Positions 10,811-31,407 of a stretch of 33,271 bases of DNA are shown here, in pieces (within the stretch, counting starts at the first letter, position 1; each line of letters starts with the position of its first letter). The stretch is from a virus: positions 1-33,271 of IMG/VR virus record IMGVR_UViG_3300047510_001802. One strand, given 5' to 3'. Under the pieces are notes generated by a model, which saw nothing but the letters and a program-made list of their open reading frames with translations, ran no database searches and was not told the DNA's origin. The translations under genes were made by a program, and so were the position numbers.

Positions 10811-13800
10811 ATGGCTAGAAGAACGTTAGTAAACAGAGATTACATATTTAATCCAGTAGCTGGAACAATTATAATTCCTGAACCAATTCAACGTGAAAGA
10901 CTCATGTTGATAACAAACGTAACACGTAATAAGGTTATCTATAACTTCTCAGATCAAAACCTAGGTGCGCTTGCTTACTCCATCAGCGACCACCCAACAT
11001 CACCTGACACAACAGTAACATTAGAGTATAACACTGCTGATATGGCATCAACAGATGATCTATCAATTATTTACGATGATGCAGTAGAAAGATTCTTGCC
11101 AGCAGAGACAATGATCGATGCAGTTGGAAAAATGCGTGTTTCTACTCCGCAGTCTCTCATCGATACAGACTTTGAATACTCAGTTCAGAACTCTAAGTGG
11201 GAAACACTTACACTTCAAAACAATTACCCATCATTCTTCTCAAGAGGTACTGGAGGAAACTCATTTGACCTTCTTTCTGTTACATCGAATGGAGCTTCAC
11301 CTAGATCAGTTATTACAGTAACAACAAACTCATTAGCCCCACATGGACTTAATAGTGGTGATATCGTTTCTGTTCAAGAAACATTAAACGCTTTGGCAGA
11401 TGGTACATCTGTTATTCAGGTAACAAACGCAAACGTATTTACATATACTTCAAAAGGAATAATTCCAGCAGGCGAATTGCTAGATGGAACACTAACAACA
11501 ATTTATGGTGGCGGTATTTTTGACAATGCACATATCCCAGGAGGAATCCCAGGACAGTTTAACGCATTTGCAGCGGTATCAGATGAAGCATCAGCCGCAT
11601 CAGGCGGATCTACAATTACAATTCAGACTCAGAGACCACATGGACTCTATGCTGGAGTTACAGTTTTGTTTGCAGGATCTTCTGCAACATCAATCGACGG
11701 CAACTACTTGGTAACAAAAGTTCCTACAGCTACTACAATTCAGTTTAAATCACCAAATACAGTATTAAACCCAATCAATACTGACCAGCTAGGATTTTAT
11801 GTAAGACCAGAAGGATACGTAGACCACAGACCATTTGACGGTGGTGTTATTCTTTCAACCGCTAATAACGTATGCGGAACACAAACAATTCGTCAGACAC
11901 GCCGTTACTTCCGTTATCAGTCAGGTAAGTCAATTCAGTTCTCAACAGGAACTAAGTTTACACCTACATTTGATATTACAGATATTTATTCTACATCAAC
12001 TGCAGCAGGATCAAACTACATTAATATTACAACACTTCAAGACCATAACCTACAGCCAGGCGCAGAGGTACTTCTTGAGGGAATTGAAACAGTTGGATAC
12101 AACCCATATAATGGTGTACACGTTGTATATGAAGTTATTAATAACACACAGCTTAGACTTCAAACAGTATTCACACAAACAATTTCTGGACTAGATCAAT
12201 ATCCAGGTGGTGTTAATGCATTCTTAACAGCATACCGCTGGAAGGGTTCAGCAACACGTGCAGGTCTATATGATGAGCAAAATGGATTCTATTTTGAGTA
12301 TGACGGAACAAAGCTTTATGCAGTTAAAAGATTCTCAAACAAAGAGCTTTTTGGAAAGCTAACATGTACTCAATACTCTAATCTAATTACAGGTCAAGGA
12401 ACAAGATTCCGCAAGCAGCTTGTGGTTGGACAGTATATTGTTATTCGTGGACAGTCATATCGTGTTATTGGAATTGATTCTGACACACAGATGTATGTTT
12501 CTCCAGCATATCGTGGATCATCAAATACATCTGCAAGATATATGGTTACTCAAGTAGAAAAAATTCCTCTAGATGAGTGGAACATAGATAGATTTGACGG
12601 AACAGGTCCTTCAGGATTTAAGATTGATCTTTCAAAGATGCAGATGACATATATTGATTACTCATGGTATGGAGCTGGTTACATTAGATTTGGTCTCAGA
12701 ACAACAGAGGGAGACATTGCTTGGGGTCATAAGATTTCAAACAACAATATTAATACAGCAGCATATATGCGTTCTGGTAACCTTCCAGCTCGTTATGAAA
12801 CAATTAACGAGCCACTTGAGTCAACAAGATTAATTGCAGGAGGAGATGGAGTAAGCGGTTCAACATTGTTCCCACAGCAAACACTTCTTTACGTAGAAAA
12901 TGTTGAAAGATGGCCAGCACAAGGTCACCTAAGAATTTCTGATAATACAAACTTTGAAATTTGTGAGTATACTCAAATTGGTGCATATAACTCTACATTA
13001 CGTGCTTATCCGATTACAGTAATTAGAAGAGCTCCACAAACATTAGTTTATGGAGGACAATCTTATGTCCTAACTGGAACATCAAGCCTTGTAAACTTTG
13101 TACCAGACCTATCAATTCCTGGTGGTTCTGGAAATGCTCAAGTTTCTGTTCAAACAATTTCTCAAAACTGTGCACCAGTTATGTCCCACTGGGGATCATC
13201 CGTAATTATGGATGGTGGATTCAATGATGACTCATTCTACCTCTTCACTGCTGGTATGCAGAGATATCTACAGGTTGGTGGATCTGGTACAGTTTCTGCA
13301 ACAGTTACAAACCGTTCACGTGCTGCAAACATTGTAACCCTAACAACGTCAACAAATCATGGATTACAGGTTGGCTCTGCAGCAACTATTTCTGGAATTC
13401 TTCAGCTATCAACTATTACTGGTAGACAGTTAACATCTGGAGTTGCAATTATTTATATGGCATCTGATCACGATGCAGTTGTAGGAAATCAAGTAACAAT
13501 CACAGGACTTGATTCAAGATTTAATGGAACATATACAGTAGCATCTGTTCCAAATAATAATACTATTACTTACTCAAGATTAGGATTTGGAAACGTACCA
13601 TTTGCCTCTGCATCAGGAACTGCAACAGTTTCTACTTCATACAATGGAGTATTTACACTTACAGCAGCCTCTGGAAACACTTTAACCTATTCTAATACTG
13701 GACCAGATGAACCACAAACATCTGTTATTCCAAATGGTACAGTTCAACAGTCACTTGGATCTACTCCAATTCCACGTCCATTAATTTCTCTTAGAATTGC

Positions 13801-14308
13801 ACCTTCTGTAGATAATGGTATTGCAAGAAACTTTGGTGTTCGTGAACTAGCAAATAGAATGCAGCTAAAGCTTGACTCAATTGGAGTTTTGGCTTCAGGT
13901 CAGTTCCTAATTGAAGGAATTTTAAATCCAGCATCTATGAACGGTCCAACATTGCCTACAGCATGGGAAACAGTTCGTGTTGGAGCAGGTTCCCTAGCTC
14001 AAGTTATCTTCCATGATAATACTGGTACTCAAGGAGCAACAGTTACATCTCCTACAAATACAATCGGTGGTGGTGACCGTGTATTTGCATTTTATACAGA
14101 AGCTCCTACAGGTGGTACATTCTCAGTAACAAACTTCTCTGCTACAAAGATCAGAGATTTGGGTAACTCAATTCTTAACGGAAATGGATCACAGACAAAT
14201 CCATCATTCCCTAACGGTCCAGATATTCTTACAATTGTAGCAACAAACATTGGTACAGCAGCTGCAAACATTTCAGCTCGTGTAACATGGACAGAAGCTC
14301 AGGCATAA
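10811..14308 (+). CDS. Large virion structural protein (1165 residues) with repeated 'HGL..G' beta domains
   Basis: The N-terminal 120 residues (MARRTLVNRDYIFNPVAGTI, then KMRVSTPQSLIDTDFEY and the nearby KWETLTLQNN) resemble large structural proteins seen in marine T4-like and related phages. At least four copies of a beta unit opening with 'H-(G/N)-L-x2-G-x-x-V' follow: APHGLNSGDIV, RPHGLYAGVTV, QDHNLQPGAEV and TNHGLQVGSAA. In databases this unit is often labelled E1-FCCH-like. The middle contains a region with WNIDRFDGTGPSG. The C-terminus (TEAPTGGTFSVTNFS) looks like a fibre-attached beta domain. GGAG at 10800-10803, 7 nt upstream, supports the start. Probably a baseplate wedge or central tail-tip protein; the precise role is not established. 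Confidence 0.7.
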   Translation: MARRTLVNRDYIFNPVAGTIIIPEPIQRERLMLITNVTRNKVIYNFSDQNLGALAYSISDHPTSPDTTVTLEYNTADMASTDDLSIIYDDAVERFLPAETMIDAVGKMRVSTPQSLIDTDFEYSVQNSKWETLTLQNNYPSFFSRGTGGNSFDLLSVTSNGASPRSVITVTTNSLAPHGLNSGDIVSVQETLNALADGTSVIQVTNANVFTYTSKGIIPAGELLDGTLTTIYGGGIFDNAHIPGGIPGQFNAFAAVSDEASAASGGSTITIQTQRPHGLYAGVTVLFAGSSATSIDGNYLVTKVPTATTIQFKSPNTVLNPINTDQLGFYVRPEGYVDHRPFDGGVILSTANNVCGTQTIRQTRRYFRYQSGKSIQFSTGTKFTPTFDITDIYSTSTAAGSNYINITTLQDHNLQPGAEVLLEGIETVGYNPYNGVHVVYEVINNTQLRLQTVFTQTISGLDQYPGGVNAFLTAYRWKGSATRAGLYDEQNGFYFEYDGTKLYAVKRFSNKELFGKLTCTQYSNLITGQGTRFRKQLVVGQYIVIRGQSYRVIGIDSDTQMYVSPAYRGSSNTSARYMVTQVEKIPLDEWNIDRFDGTGPSGFKIDLSKMQMTYIDYSWYGAGYIRFGLRTTEGDIAWGHKISNNNINTAAYMRSGNLPARYETINEPLESTRLIAGGDGVSGSTLFPQQTLLYVENVERWPAQGHLRISDNTNFEICEYTQIGAYNSTLRAYPITVIRRAPQTLVYGGQSYVLTGTSSLVNFVPDLSIPGGSGNAQVSVQTISQNCAPVMSHWGSSVIMDGGFNDDSFYLFTAGMQRYLQVGGSGTVSATVTNRSRAANIVTLTTSTNHGLQVGSAATISGILQLSTITGRQLTSGVAIIYMASDHDAVVGNQVTITGLDSRFNGTYTVASVPNNNTITYSRLGFGNVPFASASGTATVSTSYNGVFTLTAASGNTLTYSNTGPDEPQTSVIPNGTVQQSLGSTPIPRPLISLRIAPSVDNGIARNFGVRELANRMQLKLDSIGVLASGQFLIEGILNPASMNGPTLPTAWETVRVGAGSLAQVIFHDNTGTQGATVTSPTNTIGGGDRVFAFYTEAPTGGTFSVTNFSATKIRDLGNSILNGNGSQTNPSFPNGPDILTIVATNIGTAAANISARVTWTEAQA

Positions 14309-16977: not shown

Positions 16978-17955
16978 ATGACATACAGCGTAGGTACTAC
17001 AACAGGGCAAACCTATTTACCAGGCCTTACCTCAACATTAACAAGTATTGTTTCGGCAAATCTTGTAGTTAATGGTGGTGCTTACTTGCCAGTTCAAGAA
17101 AGAATTTATACAACTGGTAACTGGACACGTCCAGCAAATCCAGTTCAGATTGCAGACTGGATCAAAGTAACTTGTGTTGGAGGAGGCGGCTCTGGTGGAT
17201 CTGCAACATCATGGACTGGTCCTGGCTCAGGCGGTGGCGGAGCTGGTCAGTACCTAACACGATTTGTCAACATCGCAGGTGTTGCTGCTGGAGGAACAAT
17301 ACCAGTTGTTATAGGTGATGGAGGTGCTCAGGTTGGAGGAAACACTAACGGAAATAATGGTGGAAATACAACCTTCGGAGTAAATGGTAACGCATTCCAT
17401 CTTATTGCATATGGCGGTGGCGGTGGAGCATATGCTAGAGACTGGGGAAGAAATGGCAACAACGGTTCATGCGGAGCAGGTGCAAGTAACATTCAAGGCT
17501 CAGGCTCAGGCGGTGGCGGAGGGGGTTACTGGCAGTATCAGTACTCAGGATCAGGCGGAGGTGGAGGAGCTAATGAAGTTGGACACCATGCATTCTCCCA
17601 CGTAAGAACAAACGGAACATTTTATGGTGGATACCTAGGAGGAAGAGCCTACGGCTTTGGTTCATCTATGGGTGGAAATGGAATTTCAAACTCTTGGGGA
17701 ACGTATCACACTTCTGGAGGAAGAGGTGGACAAGGCATCAACGGTCTTGCAGGCGGCGGCGGAGGCGGCGGCGGAGTTGGTGGAGCAGGATCTTCTGGTG
17801 GAGGACAAGGGGGAGATGCAATTAGAGATAACGCTGGACAGCCAGGTGTTGATGGAACTGGCGCAGGCGGAGGCGGCGGAATGAATGGTGGATCAGTAGG
17901 TCGAAAAGGCGGTAGTGGAATAATAATAGTAGAATATTATAGAAGGATATCATAA
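16978..17955 (+). CDS. Glycine-rich tail adhesin, copy 1
   Basis: 325 residues. A roughly 35-residue N-terminal tag (MTYSVGTTTGQTYLPGLTST) precedes YTTGNWTRPAN and VTCVGGGGSGG, then long polyglycine runs of the Gly-rich-2 type (GGGGAGQYLTRFVNIAGV, PVVIGDGGAQVGG, LIAYGGGGGA), closing with the family end GGSGIIIVEYYRR. Such domains are expected to fold as polyglycine-II helical bundles and act as receptor-binding tips, as in T-even gp38-type adhesins (analogy). It overlaps the next small gene by one base (TAATG). A paralogue is at 18241. Confidence 0.8.
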   Translation: MTYSVGTTTGQTYLPGLTSTLTSIVSANLVVNGGAYLPVQERIYTTGNWTRPANPVQIADWIKVTCVGGGGSGGSATSWTGPGSGGGGAGQYLTRFVNIAGVAAGGTIPVVIGDGGAQVGGNTNGNNGGNTTFGVNGNAFHLIAYGGGGGAYARDWGRNGNNGSCGAGASNIQGSGSGGGGGGYWQYQYSGSGGGGGANEVGHHAFSHVRTNGTFYGGYLGGRAYGFGSSMGGNGISNSWGTYHTSGGRGGQGINGLAGGGGGGGGVGGAGSSGGGQGGDAIRDNAGQPGVDGTGAGGGGGMNGGSVGRKGGSGIIIVEYYRRIS

Positions 17956-18230
17956 TGACAAGTAGATTTGTTTTAGTTGATGGAGAAACAATTGTAAATT
18001 CTGTTTATGGCGGAACTAGAGAGTTTTTAGAGTCTCACCCAGATTATCAAGGGTATACAGTAGTTGATGTTTCTGATATGGATCCGTGGCCATCAGTAGA
18101 TTGGACATATGTAGATGGGGAATTTGTTCCTCCAGTTACAAATGTAGAGGCAGCTCCAGTTCCTGGAGCTTTTGAAGAAGAAATTGTAACTGAAGTTGAA
18201 AATATAACTCCAGCTATTGGAGAAGTTTAA
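17955..18230 (+). CDS. Small 'WxxVDGEFVPP' protein, adhesin-linked
   Basis: 91 residues. RFVLVDGETIVNSVYGG opens and VDWTYVDGEFVPP closes a roughly 58-residue unit that resembles each half of the duplicated protein at 22364. The last 30 residues are acidic (GAFEEEIVTEVENITPA). Starts in a TAATG overlap with the glycine-rich adhesin and ends 10 nt before its paralogue. Its position between two adhesins suggests an accessory or chaperone role, similar to small assembly proteins after fibre genes. Function not known. Confidence 0.55.
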   Translation: MTSRFVLVDGETIVNSVYGGTREFLESHPDYQGYTVVDVSDMDPWPSVDWTYVDGEFVPPVTNVEAAPVPGAFEEEIVTEVENITPAIGEV

Positions 18231-18240
18231 GGAGAGTAAC

Positions 18241-19203
18241 ATGCCAACAGTTCTAAGCACAACCCAACAAATAATGATTCCAGGCCTTGAGGACACTTTA
18301 GGTTCTGTTGTCAGAAACGTGACTCCACCAACTCCTCTTTTTATTCAAAAAGAAGAAACAATTTTAGCTAATGGTAACTGGACACGTCCAGCAAACATTT
18401 CTGATTTTATTGAAGTGACACTAATTGCTGGTGGTGGATCAGGAGGAACTTCAAATAACAACTCACGTTATGGCGGAGGCGGTGGCGCAGGCCAGTTTGT
18501 AAGAAGAATTCTTAATATCTCATCAATAGCGTCACTTGGAGTTATTCCAGTTACAATTGGAAACGGCGGAGCAGCGGTATCTGGTGCAACTAATGGAAAC
18601 AATGGCGGAAACTCAGCGTTTGGAACATCTGGAAATACATTTTACATGGTTGCATACGGCGGAGGCGGCGGAGGTTGGGCCGCAGATAATGGACGTGATG
18701 GAAATAATGGATCGATGGGTCCAGGTGCAGAGAATAGAACAGGATCTGGCTCAGGCGGAGGCGGCGGTTCAGAATGGCAACGTTCATGGGGCGGCGCAGG
18801 CGGAGGCGGAGGTGCTTCTCAGGGAGGAATGACTGGTGGAGCAATTCATGGAGGACACCAAGGAGACTTTGATGCTGGACGTGCTGGAGGAAGAGGAATT
18901 GGTGAAGGCTCGTCTGGCGGTGGCGGTGGAATGGGAAACAGTACATCTCATGAAGACGCAACTGGCGGATCAGGCGGAGCAGGAATTGAAGGTTACGCAG
19001 GCGGAGGCGGCGGAGCAGGACGATGTGGTGGAGGTAATGGGTCTTGCGGTGGAGGAATGGGAAGAAATCACACCCATGGTGAGCATGACAAGTCTGCCGC
19101 ACCTAACTCAGGCTCAGGAGGCGGAGGATCTAATTCAGATACTTCTTCTGGGGCTGGTGGTTCAGGAATATGCATAATCAGATACTGGGCTAAAATAAAT
19201 TAA
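18241..19203 (+). CDS. Glycine-rich tail adhesin, copy 2
   Basis: 320 residues, paralogous to the adhesin at 16978 throughout: N-terminal tag (STTQQIMIPGLEDTLGSVV), ILANGNWTRPAN, VTLIAGGGSGG, the polyglycine core, and GGSGICIIRYWAKIN at the end. The core differs in loop residues (WAADNGRDGNNGSMGPGAE, NHTHGEHDKSAAPN), where receptor contacts would be expected. The start is set at ATG 18241 because AAGGAG (18229-18234) lies 6 nt upstream. An in-frame TTG at 18217 would lie inside the previous gene and has no ribosome site. Confidence 0.8.
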   Translation: MPTVLSTTQQIMIPGLEDTLGSVVRNVTPPTPLFIQKEETILANGNWTRPANISDFIEVTLIAGGGSGGTSNNNSRYGGGGGAGQFVRRILNISSIASLGVIPVTIGNGGAAVSGATNGNNGGNSAFGTSGNTFYMVAYGGGGGGWAADNGRDGNNGSMGPGAENRTGSGSGGGGGSEWQRSWGGAGGGGGASQGGMTGGAIHGGHQGDFDAGRAGGRGIGEGSSGGGGGMGNSTSHEDATGGSGGAGIEGYAGGGGGAGRCGGGNGSCGGGMGRNHTHGEHDKSAAPNSGSGGGGSNSDTSSGAGGSGICIIRYWAKIN

Positions 19204-19665: not shown

Positions 19666-20100
19666 ATGTACGCAATTTTAGAAGATGGAAAAGTATCAAA
19701 GTTTGGATCATTGTCAGAACTCTTTCCAAGCGTATCTTTTGCTGCTTCTGGTCCAGATAAAGAGTGGCTAACACTAAACAACGTAACAGAAGTTGAAATG
19801 ACAATGCCATACAATCAGGATACCGAAGAATTAGTTTATCTAGAGACACCAAAGGTTACAAAGGGCGGAAAAGTAATTGGAGTCGAAGCAAAGAAGCTTT
19901 CAGATGAAAATGCATGGGCAAGAATTAAGATGAAAAGAAATGATTTGCTTACAAAGACTGACTGGACTCAACTAGCAGATACTCTAACACCAGAAATGAC
20001 AAAGAAGTATGCAGAGTATCGTGCTGCACTTCGAGACATTACATCAGCAAAAAGTCCGTCTGATGTTATCTGGCCAGAGGATCCTGCAAAGGGGGCATAA
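19666..20100 (+). CDS. Second tail-fibre assembly chaperone (Phage_tail_APC type)
   Basis: 144 residues. The C-terminal part carries KRNDLLTKTDWTQLADTLTP, then KKYAEYRAALRDITSAK and DVIWPEDP, the same signature as the protein at 15867 but in the more standard 'DWTQL' form. The N-terminal half (MYAILEDGKVSKFGSLSELF) is a separate small domain. It lies between a fibre-tip protein and a LamG protein and overlaps the latter by one base (TAATG). Two chaperones suggest at least two distinct fibre types needing assistance. Confidence 0.8.
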   Translation: MYAILEDGKVSKFGSLSELFPSVSFAASGPDKEWLTLNNVTEVEMTMPYNQDTEELVYLETPKVTKGGKVIGVEAKKLSDENAWARIKMKRNDLLTKTDWTQLADTLTPEMTKKYAEYRAALRDITSAKSPSDVIWPEDPAKGA

Positions 20101-21179: not shown

Positions 21180-21193
21180 AATGGGAGACTACC

Positions 21194-22312
21194 TTGGCCG
21201 TTCAGTCTTTTCCCAAAGATAGAAATCAGCAAGTAGAGCATTTAAATGTTCCATATGCCCGTGTAATTGTTCCTAATTTAGTTGGATTAAATAATGTTGT
21301 TGCACAGCAAGAGCTTGATGGTCAAGGTCTAAGATCAGACGAAAGGTACTTTGTAGATACTTCAGGAACTGGCGGAGTAGTAATTTCACAAGCAGTTCCA
21401 GCTGGAAAAAGAATTAGATTTAAAACTAAAATTGAATACACAGTAAGAACCTTGTCTGCAGTAACCACCCCATATGTTGTAGGGCAAACAAAAAATTCAG
21501 CAATAGCAACAATTACATCATCACTACTTACCTATAATATTGTTACTGCATCTACTCCAAACCAAAATAATCAAGATGTTGTTATTGGTCAGTCTCCAGA
21601 GCCACCAGTACAGCTTGCCCCTGGTGCCACAGTTACAATAGTTGTTGGTAATTATGTTCCAGCAACAGCTGGAATTTTGCCAGACGTAACAAGCAAAACA
21701 GAATCTGAAGCGATATTAGCATTAAATGTTGCTGGATTTACAACATATACCGTAACAAATAGCGTAGGGTCAACACCATCATATCAAACTTTAAACGGTA
21801 AAATTATTGCTCAAACTCCAACAGGTGGAGCGCTACAAGACTTTACAACAAACATATCTTTGACAAAGGCAGTTTATCAAGTTGTAACGCCAACTGTTAC
21901 ACCTACAGCTCCTACAGTAACTCCTACAGCCCCAACAGCACCAGTCGGTGTTGTTCCAGCAGCTCCTACAGTTACTCCTACAGCCCCAACAGTTGTTCCT
22001 ACTGCCCCAACAGCGCCAAGAGCTCCGACGGTAACCCCTACAGCCCCAATTGGTGTTGTTCCAACCGCACCTACGGTCACACCAACCGCACCTACGGTCA
22101 CACCAACCGCACCTACGGTCACACCAACCGCACCTACGGTCACACCAACCGCACCTAGCGGAGGCGGGGGATGTACACCAGGAGCTGTTTGTGGTGAAAT
22201 CATAGTTCCTTGTGGATCTTCAGGATGTACTTGTTGTCCAGAAGGATGTACAAGATTGAGAAGATATACAGCAACCTGCGCCTGTACAAATAGCGGTGGA
22301 TTGTTATGTTAA
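21194..22312 (+). CDS. Triple-PASTA protein with Pro-Thr repeats and Cys-rich tail (TTG start)
   Basis: 372 residues. Three PASTA-like domains occupy about residues 24-84, 91-152 and 161-225, each opening with 'P-x-(V/L)-x-G' or similar (VPNLVGLNNVVAQQEL, TPYVVGQTKNSAIATI, LPDVTSKTESEAILAL) and ending in a strand such as TVTIVVG. Residues about 231-321 are TPTAPTV-type repeats. Residues 322-372 hold ten cysteines (for example GCTCCPEGC), ending at Cys372. There is no signal peptide or membrane segment. PASTA domains are known from peptidoglycan-sensing kinases and PBPs of Gram-positive bacteria, so this virion protein may contact the host wall. TTG 21194 is chosen because GGGAG (21183-21187) sits 6 nt upstream and the ATG at 21181 opens a frame that closes at once. 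Confidence 0.75.
   Translation: MAVQSFPKDRNQQVEHLNVPYARVIVPNLVGLNNVVAQQELDGQGLRSDERYFVDTSGTGGVVISQAVPAGKRIRFKTKIEYTVRTLSAVTTPYVVGQTKNSAIATITSSLLTYNIVTASTPNQNNQDVVIGQSPEPPVQLAPGATVTIVVGNYVPATAGILPDVTSKTESEAILALNVAGFTTYTVTNSVGSTPSYQTLNGKIIAQTPTGGALQDFTTNISLTKAVYQVVTPTVTPTAPTVTPTAPTAPVGVVPAAPTVTPTAPTVVPTAPTAPRAPTVTPTAPIGVVPTAPTVTPTAPTVTPTAPTVTPTAPTVTPTAPSGGGGCTPGAVCGEIIVPCGSSGCTCCPEGCTRLRRYTATCACTNSGGLLC
22061..22157 (+). repeat. Perfect 21-nt tandem repeat (4 units plus 13 nt)
   Basis: Four identical 21-nt units beginning CCAACCGCACC start at 22061, 22082, 22103 and 22124, followed by a partial unit. Each encodes PTAPTVT in frame. They use GC-rich codons (ACC, GCA, ACG) unlike the older TPTAP copies just upstream, which points to recent expansion. 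Confidence 0.95.
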
Positions 22313-22314
22313 TA

Positions 22315-22343
22315 TTGACATCATTAAAACAATATGATATTAT
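22315..22343 (+). promoter_or_regulatory. Consensus sigma70-type promoter opening the modification cassette
   Basis: A perfect -35 TTGACA (22315-22320), an exact 17-nt spacer, and TATTAT (22338-22343) preceded by TG-A as an extended -10. It begins three bases after the PASTA gene stop. Transcription would start near 22350, giving a leader of about 14 nt with AGGA before ATG 22364. It is the strongest promoter in the window. Confidence 0.8.
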
Positions 22344-23058: not shown

Positions 23059-23760
23059 ATGGAAAAAACAGCATGGCAATTATACAAAGAGCAAAACTCA
23101 ACAGCTCCTGCTAAAAAGGAAGTTGTTTTTAATCCAGAGCCAATAAATTTTACAAAAGTAGAATTAGCTCCAGGGGTATGGATTTATAAGAATGTTTTTC
23201 CAAGCCCAGATGATCTAGTCGCAAAGATCAATTCTGAGTTTGAGTCAAGTTGGCAAGATGGCCAAGTGTTTAGTAATGGCGACGAAAAGAAAGAAGAAAT
23301 AAACAAAAAATTTAGAGATTGCTCTGTGGTTGTAATCAATAAGCCAAATGAAGATTCAAGCGAGCAGAGAGATTTGCTGTATAAGCTTGTAGATCATTCA
23401 ATGAGGGTATGCCTAGAAGACTATACAGCTATGTTTGGCATGAGTATGACAGAGCTTATTGGTGATGAGTGGCAAGTTTTAAAGTACGGACACGGACAGC
23501 ATTTTGATGGCCACGCAGATGATGGATTTAGATTCCCAAGAACAGTTTCTATTACAGCATATCTCAACGATGAATATGAAGGCGGAGAGCTAGACTATAA
23601 GCACTTTAATCTATTCTTTAAGCCAGAAAAGGGAGACGTATTAGTATTTCCATCCAACTATGTATATAACCATCGTGTTGTAGAGGTAAAGACTGGTGTA
23701 AGATACGCATTGGTAAATTGGTTTAGATGGAAGACTATGAAGGTGGATATGTTATCATGA
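23059..23760 (+). CDS. 2-oxoglutarate/Fe(II) dioxygenase, prolyl-4-hydroxylase type
   Basis: 233 residues. The double-stranded beta-helix core lies in about 135-225. Fe ligands are H152-x-D154 (FDGHADDG) and H205 (YNHRVVEV), and R215 (TGVRYAL) is the 2-oxoglutarate salt-bridge residue. YGHGQHFDGH matches the P4H-type 'Y..G..Y..H.D' entry, and YEGGELDY plus KGDVLVFPS complete the fold. The expected reaction is hydroxylation of a protein or small-molecule substrate in the cytosol with O2 and 2-oxoglutarate. The N-terminal MEKTAWQLYKEQN tag matches that of the zinc-ribbon neighbour. The collagen-like fibre at 10233 is a possible client. Overlaps the next gene by ATGA. Confidence 0.85.
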   Translation: MEKTAWQLYKEQNSTAPAKKEVVFNPEPINFTKVELAPGVWIYKNVFPSPDDLVAKINSEFESSWQDGQVFSNGDEKKEEINKKFRDCSVVVINKPNEDSSEQRDLLYKLVDHSMRVCLEDYTAMFGMSMTELIGDEWQVLKYGHGQHFDGHADDGFRFPRTVSITAYLNDEYEGGELDYKHFNLFFKPEKGDVLVFPSNYVYNHRVVEVKTGVRYALVNWFRWKTMKVDMLS

Positions 23761-24326
23761 ATATAAAAGTACAAGAACCAAGAATTATAAAAGATTTATT
23801 TTCTCAGCCAGATTATGAGAGGTTAAAGAATTACCTATACTCATATGAAAAAACAGATTCTACCTACGATAAGTACTTTGGTAGATACTGTTTTCATGAT
23901 CCATTAATAGATGAGTATGCAAAGAAGATAACTCCCTATGCCAGAAAAGTTTTTGGTAGTGACACACTAGTTCCGTCCTACTCTTTATTTGCACACTATG
24001 AAGGGTCAGAAGCAAACTTGTTCAAGCATGTAGACGATAATGCTTGCACATATACTTTAGATATGTGTGTGTATCAGAATGAGCCATGGGATTTATGGGT
24101 AGATGATAAACCTTATGAACTGTATCCTAATGAAGCTCTAGCATATTATGGAAATGATCAGATGCACTGGAGAGAAAAGTTTCCAAATCCAAATTCTCAA
24201 CATGTAGCAATGATATTTTTTCACTTTATTGAGCCAGACCACTGGTATATAACAAAGGGTCCTTCGTATTTAGAAGTTATTAGAGGAATAAAAACGGAAG
24301 ATCAATGGAACAGCGAACAGCACTAG
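23757..24326 (+). CDS. Second 2-oxoglutarate/Fe(II) dioxygenase-like protein
   Basis: 189 residues from ATG 23757 (an upstream in-frame ATG at 23727 lies inside the previous gene and is less likely, as the ATGA junction is typical coupling). H91-x-D93 (FKHVDDN) and H137 (QMHWREKF) fit the iron triad. FAHYEGSEANLFKHVDD and YPNEALAYYGNDQMHW resemble the core of small viral and bacterial dioxygenases. The 2OG-binding basic residue is less certain, perhaps R139 or a residue after AMIFFHFIEP. It is divergent from the first dioxygenase, so the two probably act on different substrates or positions. Function inferred. Confidence 0.65.
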   Translation: MNIKVQEPRIIKDLFSQPDYERLKNYLYSYEKTDSTYDKYFGRYCFHDPLIDEYAKKITPYARKVFGSDTLVPSYSLFAHYEGSEANLFKHVDDNACTYTLDMCVYQNEPWDLWVDDKPYELYPNEALAYYGNDQMHWREKFPNPNSQHVAMIFFHFIEPDHWYITKGPSYLEVIRGIKTEDQWNSEQH

Positions 24327-25273
24327 TATTAGGTGCAGGCGGTTTTATAGGAAGCCATCTAGTAAAAAGACTCAAGGAAGATGGCTTTTGGGTCAGAGGC
24401 GTAGATTTAAAGCTTCCAGAATACTGGGACACATACGCAGATGATTTTGTAATAGGTGATCTAAGAAACCCTATTGTTGTAAATAAAGTTATAGACATAC
24501 GTTTTGATGAAGTCTACCAGCTTGCCGCAGATATGGGTGGCGCTGGATATATAAATACTGGAGATAATGATGCAGAAGTAATGGGAAACTCAATTCTTAT
24601 TAATGTTAATGTGTTAAAAAGATCTCATGACATAGGGATAAAAAGTGTTTTTTATTCTTCTACTGCATGTGTTTATCCAGAATATAATCAGATGGATCCA
24701 GATTCAATAAATTGCCGTGAAGATTCTGTTTATCCAGCTGCACCAGATACAGAGTATGGATGGGAAAAGCTTTTTAGCGAAAGGCTATATCTAGCATACA
24801 ACAAAAACTATGGTATGAAAAACAAAATTGCAAGATACCACAACGTCTTTGGTCCGTACGGAACATATGATGGTGGAAAAGAAAAAGCTCCAGCTGCTAT
24901 ATGCAGAAAAGTAGCAAAAGCTGATTCTAATATTGAAATATGGGGAAGCGGAAAGCAACATAGGTCATTTTTATTTATCGATGAATGTATTAAGGCAACA
25001 GTTGACTTCTATAGGCAGGAAGGCTTTAATGAGCCTATAAACATAGGTTCTGAAAGATCAGTATCTATAGATGAGCTTGTAGATATAGTTTCTTCTATAG
25101 CAGGAAAAAATTTAGTTAAAAAGTATATTGACGGTCCAATTGGAGTTCATGCAAGAAAGTCAGAGAATTCCCTAATCAGAAAAGTTTTAGGTTACGCACC
25201 AAAAGAAAATTTAGAGCATGGGTTGTCGGTTACCTATGCTTGGATATCAGAAAGGATCAGCAATGAAAAATAA
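24305..25273 (+). CDS. GDP-mannose 3,5-epimerase-like NAD-dependent sugar epimerase
   Basis: 322 residues, extended SDR fold. GAGGFIG (10-16) binds NAD, and Y151-x3-K155 (YGWEKL) is the catalytic pair. C122 in SSTACVYPE matches the extra catalytic Cys of plant GDP-mannose 3,5-epimerase. ADMGGAGYIN, RYHNVFGPYGTYDGGKEKAP, FLFIDECIKA and INIGSERSVSIDELV follow that enzyme closely, as does the C-terminal GPIGVHARKSEN. The plant enzyme converts GDP-D-mannose to GDP-L-galactose or GDP-L-gulose; the same reaction is the best guess here. It overlaps the previous gene by 22 nt and the next by 11 nt. A related GDP-sugar epimerase or dehydratase cannot be excluded. Confidence 0.8.
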   Translation: MEQRTALVLGAGGFIGSHLVKRLKEDGFWVRGVDLKLPEYWDTYADDFVIGDLRNPIVVNKVIDIRFDEVYQLAADMGGAGYINTGDNDAEVMGNSILINVNVLKRSHDIGIKSVFYSSTACVYPEYNQMDPDSINCREDSVYPAAPDTEYGWEKLFSERLYLAYNKNYGMKNKIARYHNVFGPYGTYDGGKEKAPAAICRKVAKADSNIEIWGSGKQHRSFLFIDECIKATVDFYRQEGFNEPINIGSERSVSIDELVDIVSSIAGKNLVKKYIDGPIGVHARKSENSLIRKVLGYAPKENLEHGLSVTYAWISERISNEK

Positions 25274-26297
25274 AATATTTTTTCAAATGTGGAATCCAAC
25301 TGGAATGATTAACCAAGTAATGAGCCTGGAGATAGCCGCAGGAATCTCTCATGAAACAAAGAGTAATGTTATAGTTCATTATGTTTCTACAGAGGGAGAA
25401 CACTTTAAAAAAGTTCCGATATATACGCCAAGCATATACCATAATCAAAATAGAATAAACTTTACTGACAAAACAAGGTTCCCACACTTAAAAGATATAT
25501 TAGAGTGGGATGCAGATCTAACTCTAATAGATGAGTTAATATCTTCTTTTCCTCAGCAAGACGTAGAAATTACTGGAACATGTAATGACTACTACTATGC
25601 TAATCCAAATAATTCAATAACAGAGGACGAGCTCATGTTTGCTGAAGGAAGACAAAGATTAGTTATAGATAGAAACGTGCATCTTAAACAAACCCTAGGC
25701 TGGTACTCAAGATTTTTCTATAAAAGAAGCAGCGACCTAGACAGATCCCTTGCGTCGGTAAAATTTAAAGACCAGTACGTACAATTTGCAAATATGGTTT
25801 CAAAATCTCTAGGAGATTTTCAAGGAGCTCACATTAGGCTTTCAGATCATGCAACCAGAATGTTTAGTACATCTCAAGAGATGTTTGAGGCTGGACTTGA
25901 AAAGATGGAAAGAAATAATCTTCCTATAGTTATATCTACCTGTGAACCAATGAATAAGATGATTATAGACAATAAGCATAGGTTTATTCTTTTAGACGAT
26001 TACATAGTTCAAAATTTTGAAAAAGAGTTTAAACAACTAGACTTCCAAGACGAGGTTGTATTTGGCCTTATATGTAATCTAGTTATGCATGATGCAAAAT
26101 ATTTTATAGGAACTTCTGGAAGCACATATACTGCGTATATTCATAGAAAAAGAAATCAATCTGGAATAGAAACATGGGATCTTTTTGATAATCCAGACCA
26201 TTCTAGTGCTGGACCATACAGCTTTAATACGCCAAAGCTTGAAGGATATCAAAAGAATTTTTGGAGAGAGTGGGAGGAGTCAAAATTAGTTTTTTAA
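25263..26297 (+). CDS. Fucosyltransferase-like GT-B glycosyltransferase
   Basis: 344 residues from ATG 25263 (AAAGGA upstream). The N-terminal MWNPTGMINQVMSLEIAAG is in the place of the 'G-x-G-N-Q...A' loop of fucosyltransferases. GAHIRLSDH (H190, R192) matches the 'H-x-R' GDP-binding motif of alpha-1,2/1,6 and O-fucosyltransferases. IVISTCEP and DAKYFIGTSGSTYTAYIHRK (about 277-296) fit their 'F-(I/V)-G-(T/S)-x-S-x-(F/Y)' end motif. These enzymes use GDP-L-fucose. Beside a GDP-mannose 3,5-epimerase-like gene, a GDP-L-galactose or similar donor is a reasonable inference. Overlaps the upstream gene by 11 nt. Acceptor unknown: virion protein or glycan. Confidence 0.6.
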   Translation: MKNKIFFQMWNPTGMINQVMSLEIAAGISHETKSNVIVHYVSTEGEHFKKVPIYTPSIYHNQNRINFTDKTRFPHLKDILEWDADLTLIDELISSFPQQDVEITGTCNDYYYANPNNSITEDELMFAEGRQRLVIDRNVHLKQTLGWYSRFFYKRSSDLDRSLASVKFKDQYVQFANMVSKSLGDFQGAHIRLSDHATRMFSTSQEMFEAGLEKMERNNLPIVISTCEPMNKMIIDNKHRFILLDDYIVQNFEKEFKQLDFQDEVVFGLICNLVMHDAKYFIGTSGSTYTAYIHRKRNQSGIETWDLFDNPDHSSAGPYSFNTPKLEGYQKNFWREWEESKLVF

Positions 26298-26368
26298 GAA
26301 GATTCCTGTATAAATATAAAATGTGGAAAAAATATAGGAAGATTAAAAAAAGTAATTTAACCTACTGA
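26285..26368 (+). CDS. Micropeptide A, coupled to SGNH gene (start uncertain)
   Basis: An open frame ends in TGA at 26366-26368, whose A is the A of the next gene's ATG (TGATG). Read from ATT 26285, which has GGAGGAG (26273-26279) 5 nt upstream, it gives about 27 residues, basic and aromatic, with FLYKYKMWKKYRKIKK and ending SNLTY. It aligns with micropeptide B (28245-28331) over about 21 residues, including YK-x-(K/R), KxYR, KK and the final TY. An in-frame ATG (26321) would leave only 15 residues. ATT is a rare start, so the start is open. The following gene has no visible ribosome site of its own. Confidence 0.45.
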   Translation: MSFLRRFLYKYKMWKKYRKIKKSNLTY

Positions 26369-27315
26369 TGTTATTTGATACTTATTACAGCAAAGTAATT
26401 CCAAATTTTAATAGGGAACTAGAAAACCCAAATAAGAATTACTCAGAGGTCTTAGACATTATAGCTCCACACTCTGAGGTGCCACGCTCAGAGTACAACT
26501 ATGTTATGAATTCAGATGGTCTAAGGTCTATAAAGTTTGATCCTATGCCAGAGGTGATAGCGCTTGGATGCTCAATAACTTTAGGTCAGGGCCTTCCTGT
26601 AGACTTAAGGTGGTCAGACTTGCTATCAAAAAGAATAGATAAGCCAATAGGTAATATATCTTATAGCGGAGCAGCAATAAACAAAGACATTTCTAGCTTT
26701 TTTGGTTTAGTAAATCAATATGGCAAATACCCAAAGATACTGCTCTGCAACTTTGCAAATTTTGAGCGTTTCTATTTTATTGATGAGGGAGGTCAATATT
26801 TAAGAGATTGGTATATAAACTATAGTCCAAAAGTTACAAAAGCAAAAGTTCCATGGAACTATCAAGAAATACTTCCATATGAATGGGTATACTATCAAAA
26901 TCTAGATCACATAAAAATGCTAGAAGTATTTTGCGATTCAGTAGGAATAAAGCTATTGTGGACTTGTTGGTCAAACGCCCTGACAGTAGAAATGGAAAGT
27001 TTTTTAACTTGTAACTTTAAACACTATGTTCCAAATATGGTTAGAAAAGTTTTCCCAGAAAACTTTGAGTTCAACGTTGTGGCCAATACCGTAGATGACT
27101 TAGAGAAAAGCTACAAGATGAAAAATTGGGATATTGTTAGATGTCACAAAGAATATAAAGATATGTACCCAGAAATATTTGAATATGCATATGACAAGAA
27201 TAAGATAGCGGGACCATGGGGAAGTGGATCCCATTGGCCACACCCAGGCCTACACAAGCAGTTACACTTTGCAGACTTTTTTTATGAAGAGCTAAAAGAC
27301 AGAAGTTGGATATAA
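26368..27315 (+). CDS. SGNH hydrolase-like protein 1
   Basis: 315 residues. VIALGCSITLGQGL (Ser69) is the block I nucleophile region of SGNH esterases and acyltransferases, with Cys68 where GDSL enzymes have Asp. Block II Gly is in NISYSGAA, block III Asn probably in CNFANFER. Block V is SHWPHPG, with His292 in the catalytic position but His289 where DxxH enzymes have Asp. LDHIKMLEVFCDSVGIKLLW is shared with the next protein (paralogues). Likely removes or adds acyl groups on a sugar; specificity unknown. The start overlaps the micropeptide stop (TGATG) and has no ribosome site of its own. Confidence 0.65.
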   Translation: MLFDTYYSKVIPNFNRELENPNKNYSEVLDIIAPHSEVPRSEYNYVMNSDGLRSIKFDPMPEVIALGCSITLGQGLPVDLRWSDLLSKRIDKPIGNISYSGAAINKDISSFFGLVNQYGKYPKILLCNFANFERFYFIDEGGQYLRDWYINYSPKVTKAKVPWNYQEILPYEWVYYQNLDHIKMLEVFCDSVGIKLLWTCWSNALTVEMESFLTCNFKHYVPNMVRKVFPENFEFNVVANTVDDLEKSYKMKNWDIVRCHKEYKDMYPEIFEYAYDKNKIAGPWGSGSHWPHPGLHKQLHFADFFYEELKDRSWI

Positions 27316-27316
27316 T
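27311..27316 (+). promoter_or_regulatory. -10 box for apparent leaderless transcript (SGNH 2)
   Basis: TATAAT ends exactly 6 nt before ATG 27323 and no ribosome site is present between them. It overlaps the end of the preceding gene. The same TATAAT-N6-ATGAAG layout occurs at 29743 and a TAAAAT version at 31455. Confidence 0.55.
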
Positions 27317-27322
27317 ATTGGT

Positions 27323-28252
27323 ATGAAGTTTTTATATAGTTACGAGACCTGGGGTAAGATACTAAGATATGTTGATCCTAACAGACTAGATAACTTTACT
27401 TTCGATTATGAGTCTTACCATTTTTATTCAGACGGCAGGCTTAAGAAAACTGAAGATGGCTACCACATTGGTCCAAATGGATATTATGACCCCTCAATAA
27501 AAAAAGAGGATAGGGTAAGCTATAGATTTAACAATTTATTTTTTAGATCTAGGCACTTTGAAAAACTAAACGAAAAAGAAGTAAATATACTATACTCTGG
27601 TTGCTCATGGACATATGGAAGCGGCATGTATGAAGACTTTATGTGGACAAAGTTTTTGACAGAGAAGATAAAGGGTAATGGAAAAGTGGTAAAAGATTTC
27701 AACGTTGCACTTCCTGGAAGCTCAGTTTTTTTAGCTATAAAAAATGTAATGTCGTTTATTAGACAGTATGGAAAACCTACCTATATTTTTATTAATATGC
27801 CACCAATAGCTAGAGACATGAAGTATGATAAGAAAAACAATTTCTTCTATTCGGTAGTTATGGGTAGCGGGTACTTTGAGAGCAATCATCCAAAAATATA
27901 CCTAGAGTATATAAAGTCACATAATCATGAAGATAGTATATTAAAAGCAGTAGACCAAATAAAGATGCTAGAAGATTACTGTAGTGAAGCTGGGATTAAA
28001 TTAATATGGACATTCTGGCATCAACATGACTCTGGGGTTTATGAAAGCATAAAGTTTGATAATATTTTTTTACCAGACTTCAATTTTAGACCCTACGTTT
28101 TAGATGAGGATAATAATAAAGAATACTATGATAATTCAAATGGACTACCGCTTTGGGAGTTAGCGCAGGATAGATGTCACCCAGGCTCAGCATGGAATAT
28201 AAAGTGTGCAGATGATTTTTATAGCGAGATCGTTAGGAGAGGTTATGAATAA
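27323..28252 (+). CDS. SGNH hydrolase-like protein 2
   Basis: 309 residues. NILYSGCSWTYGSGM holds the nucleophile Ser95, again preceded by Cys rather than Asp. FNVALPGSSVF (block II Gly) and TYIFINMPPIAR (block III Asn) follow. QDRCHPGSAW near the end is a regular DxxH pair (D283, H286), unlike the first SGNH protein. VDQIKMLEDYCSEAGIKLIW is the paralogous segment shared with it. Acyl hydrolase or transferase on a glycan is the likely role. Its last codons overlap micropeptide B. The start is apparently leaderless (TATAAT at 27311). Confidence 0.7.
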   Translation: MKFLYSYETWGKILRYVDPNRLDNFTFDYESYHFYSDGRLKKTEDGYHIGPNGYYDPSIKKEDRVSYRFNNLFFRSRHFEKLNEKEVNILYSGCSWTYGSGMYEDFMWTKFLTEKIKGNGKVVKDFNVALPGSSVFLAIKNVMSFIRQYGKPTYIFINMPPIARDMKYDKKNNFFYSVVMGSGYFESNHPKIYLEYIKSHNHEDSILKAVDQIKMLEDYCSEAGIKLIWTFWHQHDSGVYESIKFDNIFLPDFNFRPYVLDEDNNKEYYDNSNGLPLWELAQDRCHPGSAWNIKCADDFYSEIVRRGYE

Positions 28253-28331
28253 GATAAAGTCTATTTTTTATAAAATAAGATATTATAAAATATACAGAGA
28301 ATTAAAAAAGAAGAGCGATTACACATACTGA
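28245..28331 (+). CDS. Micropeptide B (28 residues), coupled to carbamoyltransferase
   Basis: ATG 28245 has AGGAG (28235-28239) 5 nt upstream and overlaps the end of the SGNH gene by 8 nt. The 28 residues are basic and aromatic (NKIKSIFYKIRYYKIYREL, then KKKSDYTY), with no membrane segment. The TGA stop overlaps the carbamoyltransferase ATG by one base (TGATG), and that gene has no ribosome site of its own. It is related in sequence and layout to micropeptide A. In bacteria, short proteins such as DUF5989 are recalled near NodU-type carbamoyltransferases, but those have a membrane segment, so the link is only suggestive. Confidence 0.65.
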   Translation: MNKIKSIFYKIRYYKIYRELKKKSDYTY

Positions 28332-29758
28332 TGATAGTACTTGGTATAAATGAAACATCTCATGATGCAGCAGCATGTCTTATAAAAGATGGAGACATAC
28401 TTTTTGCTGGCCATGCAGAAAGGTACAGCAAGGTAAAGAATGACTGGTATGTAAATGATGATCTTATAAATGACTTAATGTCGTATGGAAAACCAGACGC
28501 TATTGCATATTATGAAAAACCATTTTTTAAAAAGTTAAGGCTTAGTCTAAGAGGCGGACTTGGAGACTGGAAGCCAAAGTTTGATATATCAGATATTCCA
28601 AGACGTAACTTTAATCATCATTACTCTCACGCATGTGCTGGATACTTTACAAGCAAATTTAATGATGCCGTAATAGTTGTTTTAGATGCTATAGGAGAAT
28701 GGAATACTTCAACTATATGGGTAGGCAAAGGTACAGAGATTACTCAGAAGTATAAGAAAAACTACCCAGTCAGCTTTGGCCTGTTTTACTCAGCTTTCAC
28801 AAAGTTAATAGGTCTTATGCCAAACCAAGAAGAATACATAATGATGGGCATGGCTGGTTATGGTGACCCAAATAAATATCTATATAAAGTTTCTCAATAC
28901 TTTCCAGATATAAACACTCAAAAATATAATTTTCATAAAGGTATATTTGATTGGGATGAACCAATTACTGAGAAAAATAAATTTGATATTGCAGCATCAG
29001 TTCAAAAAGTTTATGAATTAAGACTTAACGAATTTATGCACTTTGCCTATAAAATTACTGGTAAAGAAAATCTAGTATTTATGGGTGGGTGTGCTCTTAA
29101 TTCTTCTGCCAACACGATGTTATGGAACATATTTAAAAACGTATGGATAATGCCGAACCCAGGAGATGCTGGTAGCTCTTTGGGAGCAGCAGCAGCTTTT
29201 TATGGCAAGCATTTAAATTGGAATGGTCCATATTTAGGACACGATTTAGGCGGAGAGTATCCAGTAGAAAAGATTGTAGAAAAAATATTAAATGACAAAA
29301 TAGCTGCAGTCGCAACTGGTAAGGCGGAGTTTGGCCCAAGAGCGCTAGGAAACAGAAGCATACTCGCTGACCCAAGAGATCCAGATATAAAAGATAAGGT
29401 TAATCTTATAAAGCAGAGAGAGTTGTTCAGACCATTTGCTCCAGTAGTTTTAGAAGAACATGCCTCATCATGGTTTGATATGGACTTTAAATCTCCATAC
29501 ATGCAATATACCGTCAAATGCTTAAGGCCAGATATTATCCCATCAGTAGTTCATGTGGACGGAACTTCTAGGGTACAAACAGTCAGTAAGTCTGAAAATC
29601 CAGGACTATGGGAAGTGGTGAATAAATTTTATGAAAAGACTGGAGTTCCAGTGCTCTTAAATACTAGCCTTAATATAAAGGGACAGCCGTTGCTTAATGA
29701 CCTCAATGATGCTCAAGAATGGTCAAATCTTTATGGTACTGGTATAATTGGTGTATGA
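28331..29758 (+). CDS. NodU/TobZ-type O-carbamoyltransferase
   Basis: 475 residues. The Kae1-like N-terminal domain has ETSHDAAACLIKDG (H11) and FNHHYSHAC (H96 and H100, metal ligands), then VVLDAIGEWN and MGGCALNSSAN, NPGDAGSSLGAAAA. The C-terminal domain has EFGPRALGNRSILADPR, ELFRPFAPVVL and LLNTSLNIKGQPLL. The expected reaction transfers a carbamoyl group from carbamoyl phosphate via carbamoyl-adenylate to a hydroxyl of a sugar or nodulation-like glycan. It ends normally for the family. Translation is coupled to micropeptide B. Its neighbours suggest carbamoylation of a sugar made or attached by this cassette. Confidence 0.9.
   Translation: MIVLGINETSHDAAACLIKDGDILFAGHAERYSKVKNDWYVNDDLINDLMSYGKPDAIAYYEKPFFKKLRLSLRGGLGDWKPKFDISDIPRRNFNHHYSHACAGYFTSKFNDAVIVVLDAIGEWNTSTIWVGKGTEITQKYKKNYPVSFGLFYSAFTKLIGLMPNQEEYIMMGMAGYGDPNKYLYKVSQYFPDINTQKYNFHKGIFDWDEPITEKNKFDIAASVQKVYELRLNEFMHFAYKITGKENLVFMGGCALNSSANTMLWNIFKNVWIMPNPGDAGSSLGAAAAFYGKHLNWNGPYLGHDLGGEYPVEKIVEKILNDKIAAVATGKAEFGPRALGNRSILADPRDPDIKDKVNLIKQRELFRPFAPVVLEEHASSWFDMDFKSPYMQYTVKCLRPDIIPSVVHVDGTSRVQTVSKSENPGLWEVVNKFYEKTGVPVLLNTSLNIKGQPLLNDLNDAQEWSNLYGTGIIGV
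29743..29748 (+). promoter_or_regulatory. -10 box for apparent leaderless transcript (LamG gene)
   Basis: TGGTATAAT (TATAAT 29743-29748), an extended -10, ends 6 nt before ATG 29755 and lies in the end of the carbamoyltransferase gene. No ribosome site intervenes. Same geometry as 27311 and 31455. Confidence 0.5.
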
Positions 29759-31407
29759 AGATATTAGATGCTGTTTTTAATCAGCAAGACCAGTCATTCT
29801 CAAATCCATGCGGATTCGCTGCACGAGCTATGAAGGAAGGTCTTGGAACCTTAAAGTACACAACCCCACTATCATCTACCTCATATAGCTCTATAAGGGT
29901 TACCCCGCAGGCATCAGTGTCACTACATGATTTAAATATAGGTAAATATAGCTATGAAAAAGAAGACTTTTTCTTTTCTTTCCAGGCCTATTTTGGAAAC
30001 ACTTTTTCTACCCAACAAAATTTTCTTTATGACGTAAGTCAAAATATAGGTTTTTCTGTAAAAGACGGAAATGTAATTTTTACTATTACAGATAGTCTAG
30101 ATGTTTCGCACAAGATATATTACAAGCTTCCTTCTATATCTGAGTCTTATTCGATAATAGGAGCCTACTCAAACAATCAATCCTCTTTATATATAAATGG
30201 TGAGTTAAAGGCTTCAAAATATCTAGGAGATTTGTTTAAGTTTAAGTCTCAGATTGATCTTCAGCTAGACTCAGAAGTAAGCTCAGATTTTATAATATTG
30301 GACAAAATAGAGGTTTATAAATCAAAGGTTAATTCTGTATATCTAAGAGATATAGCAGAGTACAAGGTTTTGGCTAATAATATAAATAGAAACATTGTCA
30401 TGGATAACCCAGTTTATTTTGAGGCGGCTAGAGACTCAAAGCCAATATCTCATGCCATGATCTATGGAGTAAATAAAGATGTTTCCACAGCAGAGCTATC
30501 TAATGTTTATATAACAGACTCTAGAGAAGTAAAGTTGATTGAAGGTCAGGCTTCTGGGTATTTAAAAGATTACTACTTCTTCCCTCCAGTTGCTGACTCA
30601 GACCATAATCAAATTGAGTGGTTATTTAACAACTCTGGCATAGCCTTTGAGTACAGCTTTGACGATATTACATATTATCCAGCAACAAATAATTCTAATA
30701 TACCTGGATTTTCGGGTGGCTATTTTTATTATAAGGTCACGCTAACATCTTCAGATACATCAATTAATGATCCAGTATTTTCTGGGATATCTTTTATTTG
30801 CTATGAATCTAAAACAATAGGCTCAGATAATTCAATAGGACAAATAACAACAGACTATAATTTTTTGGTTGGGAAAAGAAACTCATCCGTACTCTACTAT
30901 GCCTCTAATAAAGGCATAGTGCCGCTTTCTGGAGGCTTTAGATATAACTCTGGAGATGTAAGGTCAGTAGAGTTTATGTACCGTCCTACGGGCCTAGGAC
31001 AGACTTCTTTGGTTGACTGCGGAGATTCTAGAGTTTCTTGGAGTGCGGCTGGAAATGTAACAAAAAGTAATATTTCCTCATTCTACGTAAATGGTACAAA
31101 TCAGACATCTACTTCTATATCAGACATATTCGACATAGGTATCTGGTATCACGTACTAATAACATTTTCTTCAAACAAGCAAGCAGATCTATTCTTTAAT
31201 CAGACACAGACTGGGACCATGCTTGGAAGCAACAGTAACTATTCTAATATTGCTATTTATGACTATGATGCTTCAGGATTAGCATCTAAGCATTTTAATA
31301 ACATAATTAATAACACATATATTGCATCTTCTTCAGATTCCATAACCATAGGTTCAGATTCCTATAACGGCTTTAATGTTGACGTATTAGTGCACTCAAC
31401 ACAATAA
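29755..31407 (+). CDS. Double LamG-like jelly-roll virion protein
   Basis: 550 residues from ATG 29755, which overlaps the previous stop (ATGA); an earlier in-frame ATG lies inside the carbamoyltransferase. The first beta domain (about 55-215) includes FFFSFQAYFGNTFS, SIIGAYSNNQSSLYINGELK. The second (about 400-550) includes VEFMYRPTGLGQTSLVDCG, GIWYHVLITFSSNKQADLFF and ITIGSDSYNGFNVDVLV, which is LamG-like. The middle (DYYFFPPVADSDHNQIEWLF, YSFDDITYYPAT) is another beta module. Probably a tail-tip or capsid-surface glycan-binding protein, last gene before the hairpin and the head module. Association with the modification cassette is by position only. Confidence 0.6.
   Translation: MKILDAVFNQQDQSFSNPCGFAARAMKEGLGTLKYTTPLSSTSYSSIRVTPQASVSLHDLNIGKYSYEKEDFFFSFQAYFGNTFSTQQNFLYDVSQNIGFSVKDGNVIFTITDSLDVSHKIYYKLPSISESYSIIGAYSNNQSSLYINGELKASKYLGDLFKFKSQIDLQLDSEVSSDFIILDKIEVYKSKVNSVYLRDIAEYKVLANNINRNIVMDNPVYFEAARDSKPISHAMIYGVNKDVSTAELSNVYITDSREVKLIEGQASGYLKDYYFFPPVADSDHNQIEWLFNNSGIAFEYSFDDITYYPATNNSNIPGFSGGYFYYKVTLTSSDTSINDPVFSGISFICYESKTIGSDNSIGQITTDYNFLVGKRNSSVLYYASNKGIVPLSGGFRYNSGDVRSVEFMYRPTGLGQTSLVDCGDSRVSWSAAGNVTKSNISSFYVNGTNQTSTSISDIFDIGIWYHVLITFSSNKQADLFFNQTQTGTMLGSNSNYSNIAIYDYDASGLASKHFNNIINNTYIASSSDSITIGSDSYNGFNVDVLVHSTQ

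Follow-up and report, generated by a model that had tools for sequence, protein, structure and literature searches.

A PASTA-domain gene among tail-fibre genes

The analysed window (33,271 bases, the right-hand part of an IMG/VR viral contig of 55,313 bp) carries among its tail-fibre genes a TTG-initiated open reading frame encoding a 372-aa protein (Table 1). The TTG start is credible because the GGGAG motif 5 nt upstream, its spacing, and the TTG itself are kept unchanged in relatives. A sequence-only reading of this gene had described three PASTA domains without a signal peptide, and a Pfam profile search agreed: PASTA (PF03793) matched at E 1e-21 and 77.1 bits, against a cut-off of 23.2, in three stretches that each exceed the cut-off individually. 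NCBIfam aligned residues 23–223 to the PASTA part of Stk1/PknB kinases (NF033483) and to no other part, scoring 65 bits where the family cut-off is 450, and Pfam found no kinase domain in the protein. Profile searching of the PDB gave M. tuberculosis PknB as the sole relatives. By inspection, the N-terminus (MAVQSFPKDRNQQVEHLNVPYARV) contains no hydrophobic segment, signal peptide, or membrane segment. AlphaFold returned a pLDDT of 33.8 for the full protein and 32.7 for residues 1–229, from an alignment too thin to support a model. The protein matched no PHROGs family, no annotated phage record at E 0.01 (by tblastn, which profile-level relatives in named phages could escape), and nothing in 84,980 bacterial and archaeal genomes scanned once with the whole protein and once with the tip; the literature searched yielded no PASTA protein from a phage virion.

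Table 1. Features of the PASTA-stalk-tip locus and its surroundings, in window coordinates.
Feature	Position	Strand	Basis
phrog_5838 virion structural protein	10811..14308		PHROGs
Phage_tail_APC tail-fibre assembly chaperone-like protein	19666..20100	+	Pfam
Upstream fibre-module protein, 111 aa	20844..21179	+	76–96% conserved, along with the PASTA gene
Ribosome-binding site GGGAG ahead of TTG start	21184..21188	+	Sequence; identical in L003, L004, L006, L008
PASTA-stalk-tip protein, 372 aa	21194..22312	+	Pfam, NCBIfam; seven related contigs
N-terminal 24-aa segment	21194..21265	+	96–100% identical in all relatives
PASTA domain 1	21263..21436	+	Pfam, 29.1 bits
PASTA domain 2	21461..21649	+	Pfam, 34.7 bits
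PASTA domain 3	21677..21832	+	Pfam, 31.0 bits
Pro/Thr repeat stalk, APTVTPT unit	21881..22171	+	Repeat and composition analysis
46-aa tip with ten invariant Cys	22172..22309	+	Composition; comparison with relatives
Predicted promoter TTGACA-N17-TATTAT, TG before -10	22315..22343	+	Between the candidate adhesin gene and the next gene
Small protein, 146 aa	22364..22804	+	83% identical in contigs with the ten-Cys tip
2OG-Fe(II) oxygenase	23059..23760	+	PF13640, E 2.3e-15; HxD...H iron triad in alignment
Second oxygenase-like protein	23727..24326	+	HxD...H retained; no Pfam match
NAD-dependent sugar epimerase/dehydratase	24305..25273	+	Profile match
O-fucosyltransferase-like protein (weak)	25218..26297	+	Match under Pfam cut-off
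NodU-type carbamoyltransferase	28331..29758	+	Profile match, NCBIfam
Conserved right border of swapped cassette	29719..31407	+	82% in L004 and L006

The Pro-Thr stalk and ten-cysteine tail named in the same reading are likewise present. Within the stalk, a 21-bp unit forms a perfect array of 4.6 copies at 100% identity (22061–22157), and residues 230–326 are 27% Pro and 31% Thr. Exactly ten Cys fall in the last 46 aa; the chance of at least ten is 4e-15 given a Cys rate of 0.4% (from 20 left-hand genes). All ten are unchanged in four relatives, and a dN of 0.05 against a dS above 1.1 (window versus L003 or L004) indicates that the tip is under strong purifying selection in those comparisons. 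Pfam gave no match for the tip, to a known cystine-knot family or otherwise. A cyclotide-like Cys spacing (kalata B1, E 0.37 in the PDB) was dismissed as chance or compositional. The tail had also been called unusual for a virion protein; the Cys richness is real, but the oddity is less than claimed because the virion of phage Milano holds an extensive disulfide network (PMC10811340). Milano is thus a precedent for Cys-rich virion proteins in a tailed phage, although its disulfides lock the sheath and baseplate and it has no Cys-rich mini-tip or PASTA domain (PMC10811340).

Siting among tail genes, a further element of the earlier description, is evident from neighbours matching Phage_tail_APC, Gly_rich_2, and phrog_5838. 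Two paralogous Gly_rich_2 fibre proteins (16978–17955 and 18217–19203) are 52–53% identical, with an extra copy in L006 and L008. Near the left window end lies a TA-rich tandem repeat (13–98) with 27-bp and 9-bp periods.

Several lines converge on an actinobacterial host, as had been proposed. The contig's class II ribonucleotide reductase (RNR) shares about 67% identity with its counterparts in Streptomyces phages, the same contig carries GP88, and its SLT_3 lysozyme has its best phage matches in Streptomyces phages. The window family lacks WhiB; of 26 records examined that have a related reductase, 7 encode it, among them each of the four whose length approaches or exceeds 95 kb. Structural genes such as that of the phrog_5838 protein match T4-like cyanophages, and also Actinomycetia phage DSL-LC01 and a small number of Microbacterium phages. 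On the RNR, GP88, SLT_3, and relatives' WhiB, we regard an actinobacterial host as well supported by gene content.

Outward variation and a modular series of fibre partners

The protein occurs in seven related contigs (L003–L009, two of them truncated), and the gene's place among the fibre genes is fixed in all of them. Between the window and L006, amino acid identity is 96% over the N-terminus (residues 1–24), 88% in the first PASTA domain, 66% in the second, and 52% in the third, beyond which stalk and tip cannot be aligned. Stalk units differ wholly between relatives (APTVTPT, PPIIAVT, PPPIIAT, PPVFTA). Copy number also differs, 11 in L003 versus 5 in L005, between contigs whose right-hand flanks are 99.9% identical; this could reflect rapid change in stalk length or an assembly effect, as assemblers can miscount repeats. 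Two unrelated Cys-rich tip classes sit on one shared base: five contigs have the ten-Cys tip and three others bear a different tip with two Cys-rich modules. Since the two classes follow two clades, the exchange may have been a single event.

Each tip class has its own small downstream gene, the 146-aa protein giving way to an unrelated 129-aa protein in contigs with the other tip. We infer that the 146-aa protein may be a tip chaperone or accessory, and stop short of calling it a strict tip partner because there are two classes only and the small gene has its own promoter. That predicted promoter is near-consensus and sigma-70-like with an extended -10; its hexamers are conserved in all relatives while spacer and flanks differ, and it probably starts a separate transcript of the sugar and oxygenase genes beyond.

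With identity falling outward, the stalk rewritten, and the tip exchanged, the alignments point to the PASTA end as the fixed base and the tip as the part that would meet the host. This pattern is, as far as sequence comparison can tell, the polarity of an adhesin, base fixed and distal end exchangeable, and it joins the two features expected of a tail-fibre adhesin, location in a fibre module and a conserved virion end with an exchangeable distal end. We propose the near-invariant N-terminal 24-aa segment as the candidate fibre or virion attachment part.

A search for PASTA proteins in 44 other records with a related reductase yielded two more, and a third emerged with an HMM built in this analysis. 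All three combine PASTA with a repeat stalk, and two have a distinct tip: L080 has one PASTA domain (20.9 bits in Pfam, slightly below cut-off), a PYHAP stalk, and an 8-Cys tip; G047 has two PASTA domains, a PVIINE stalk, and a Hint-like tip; and G028 has one PASTA domain, a PPVVPP stalk, an FN3-like domain, and a Pro-rich tail. Their genes lie directly 3' of a tail-fibre gene, with codons overlapping or nearly so: in related actinophages the partner gene starts 0–36 bp after a fibre gene that has the C-terminus ..TPGLKLRAQWSSATLLKR.., and stop and start overlap in G047 and G028. In the window family the gene directly 5' is instead the 111-aa protein, not a fibre with the LKLR C-terminus.

Used as a probe, this fibre C-terminus revealed that the next gene in most related records encodes FN3, a Pro-rich stalk, and a tip. 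Partners thus share a plan of a short N-terminus, PASTA (four lineages) or FN3 (most others), Pro-rich repeats, and a tip that is Cys-type, Hint-type, or plain; stalks of FN3 partners are often FFPP, and G028 has both an FN3 and a PASTA version. Because FN3 stands in PASTA's position in sister phages, we interpret the two, on gene order and domain content, as alternative modules at one site. The Hint-type tip of the G047 protein, its sole part matched among annotated phages, resembles annotated tail or virion structural proteins of Erwinia and Dickeya phages. The FN3 partner of L120 matched nothing in the annotated phage collection at 1e-3, and no annotated phage record matched the PASTA-stalk-tip architecture.

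Stalk proteins in L137 (5906–7006, minus strand) and L089 (20265–21626) are tipped with a Hint/intein-like domain that could be self-processing; the L137 tip matches tail or virion structural proteins from phages of Erwinia and Dickeya. The partners in G008 and G026 instead contain 32 or 51 Cys and lack a Pro-rich stalk of this kind. Such Cys-rich partners follow the fibre gene at L054 9807–11210, G008 33058–34458, and G026 84121–85497; those of L054 and G008 contain NPYNPC repeats, and these phages lack the Pro-rich stalk and oxygenases.

Taken together, we favour, with a probability of roughly 0.7, the gene product as an adhesin subunit by which the tail-fibre module of a phage of a freshwater-type actinobacterium would contact its host. 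Its PASTA base, Pro-rich stalk, and exchangeable Cys tip would make it a new adhesin variant in a modular actinophage series. The protein would presumably reside in the virion, its N-terminal segment and three PASTA domains forming a virion-proximal part in which PASTA probably serves structurally. From this base the repetitive, probably extended stalk would project, carrying a small, probably disulfide-knotted tip that may touch the receptor and that is swapped whole between related phages.

Neighbouring oxygenases and the proline-rich stalk

Downstream, a cassette spanning 23059–29758 is hypervariable and swapped between close relatives, as judged against L003, L004, and L006. Its contents include 2OG-Fe oxygenases, DUF6065, PF11397 or GT61 glycosyltransferases, an epimerase, and a NodU carbamoyltransferase. 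Every relative keeps a PF13640 oxygenase in the swapped cassette along with sugar enzymes. L003 and L004 carry PF11397, the family of the Skp1 hydroxyproline GlcNAc-transferase, and L006 carries GT61; a search with the L004 glycosyltransferase returned near-identical contigs and one distant phage, nothing else. The closest solved chains to the first window oxygenase are prolyl 4-hydroxylases, a weak match at E 0.012.

These neighbours raise a possibility that we hold only tentatively, namely that the stalk prolines are hydroxylated in the infected cell by the adjacent 2OG-Fe(II) oxygenases and then, in some phages, glycosylated. Retention of the oxygenase and sugar enzymes in an otherwise swapped cassette favours the idea, as does their distribution. 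Among 26 whole records, an oxygenase occurs in 13/13 lineages with a Pro-rich stalk and 0/9 stalk-less records, one of which (G030) extends just 3.3 kb past the reductase. One record alone disagrees, G036, which has 645 bases past the reductase and so does not include the fibre region. Fisher's exact test gives p 1e-5 with an oxygenase HMM built in this analysis, trained partly on these same phages, and p 1e-4 with PF13640 alone, in counts that ignore kinship. Oxygenases also lie near the stalk gene, mostly 1–5 genes away, totalling 70 steps versus 191 expected by chance among genes of the same record. Collagen-like proteins were considered as an oxygenase substrate and set aside: the two occur together in the window family, but across the records they show no association (p 0.36).

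Other results weigh against stalk hydroxylation. A tree-aware test gave five independent pairs, four concordant, none discordant, and one tied (p 0.125), and is underpowered; it used the reductase tree, from which a fibre-module tree may differ. The window oxygenases resemble phrog_61, which is common among cyanophages, and their substrates could be others than the stalk. In G042 and G046 the stalk gene lies at a contig terminus, with the closest oxygenase 15 genes away. Given the ignored kinship, the tree-aware p value, and the partly self-trained HMM, we rate the association between stalk and oxygenase as suggestive at the level of gene content. In L136 (8291–13885, minus strand), two stalk-partner genes of a single phage enclose an unbroken row of six 2OG-Fe(II) oxygenases and two DUF6065-type genes.

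Viral precedent comes from Chlorella virus PBCV-1, which, according to Eriksson 1999 as cited in PMC9301287, encodes a prolyl 4-hydroxylase and offers evidence of 4-hydroxyproline in viral proteins. The likeness, as far as that source goes, is of a virus with a prolyl hydroxylase gene and Pro-rich viral proteins; PBCV-1 is a eukaryotic virus, whereas the present link comes from co-occurrence and gene proximity. Extended to a whole actinophage lineage whose Pro-rich fibre stalks would be hydroxylated, and some glycosylated, in the cell by phage oxygenases and glycosyltransferases, on PASTA or FN3 bases and with Cys-knot or Hint tips, the proposal becomes slightly more doubtful.

Alternative roles, known systems, and significance

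The sequence-only reading suggested a different role, noting that PASTA domains bind peptidoglycan and that the protein may hold the tail to the wall; stalk and Cys tip would then act as a tether or virion anchor. The domains are bona fide PASTA, with M. tuberculosis PknB as their only structural kin, the host is actinobacterial, and PASTA recurs in four lineages of these phages, all of which would suit such an anchor. The PASTA fold, an alpha plus three-strand beta arrangement, binds muropeptides or beta-lactams in some members only, and many PASTA domains do not bind muropeptides. More directly, conservation is highest towards the PASTA end and variation gathers in stalk and tip, which counts against PASTA as the main host-binding part, and its interchangeability with FN3 in sister phages speaks for a structural function rather than for wall binding as a requirement. 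Wall binding by these domains is therefore possible from their sequence, yet as the main account of the gene we think wall anchoring unlikely and prefer the host-contact adhesin.

Considerably less probable is a protein outside the virion, cytosolic or secreted, that binds host peptidoglycan or the partners of kinase PASTA domains and, for example, disturbs PknB signalling. The resemblance to the extracellular region of PknB/Stk1, including a tandem trio of PASTA domains, would fit such a role; yet the window protein has no kinase, transmembrane segment, or signal peptide, its gene is fixed in a fibre module with an adhesin-like gradient of variation, a stalk and Cys tip follow the PASTA domains, and the same plan recurs after fibre genes elsewhere with FN3 in place of PASTA. 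Host-derived contamination or chimeric assembly, a concern because a PASTA search of the annotated phage collection gave eight hits, every one in an unannotated record, and the five inspected were whole host PASTA kinases in records labelled UNVERIFIED, is refuted by synteny of the window gene in independent contigs from several metagenomes, and the gene has neither a kinase nor a transmembrane part nor any relative in the scanned cellular genomes.

As a host-contact adhesin, the protein resembles in plan the gp38-type adhesins of T-even phages (Salmonella phage S16, T2/T6), which are encoded by a separate gene after the fibre gene and have a variable receptor-binding end. Both arrangements pair a conserved attachment end with a variable distal one, but the likeness is one of plan alone: gp38 has a glycine-rich helix bundle where PASTA or FN3 and a Pro-rich stalk stand here. 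Closer are the FN3-stalk-tip partners (L091, L094, L103, L120, L121, L089), alike in position after the fibre gene, plan, and tip types, and different in having FN3 for PASTA and stalks of the FFPP or FFGPP type.

To our knowledge, few phages of the abundant freshwater actinobacteria have been isolated, and little is known of their receptors; a modular set of adhesins in which base, stalk, and tip can each be swapped offers clear candidates for determinants of host range. A hydroxylated stalk, if true, would be a bacterial-virus counterpart of hydroxyproline-rich glycoproteins. Many aquatic phages carry 2OG-Fe(II) oxygenases with a role described as cryptic (PMC9301287), and such a stalk would supply these enzymes with a substrate.
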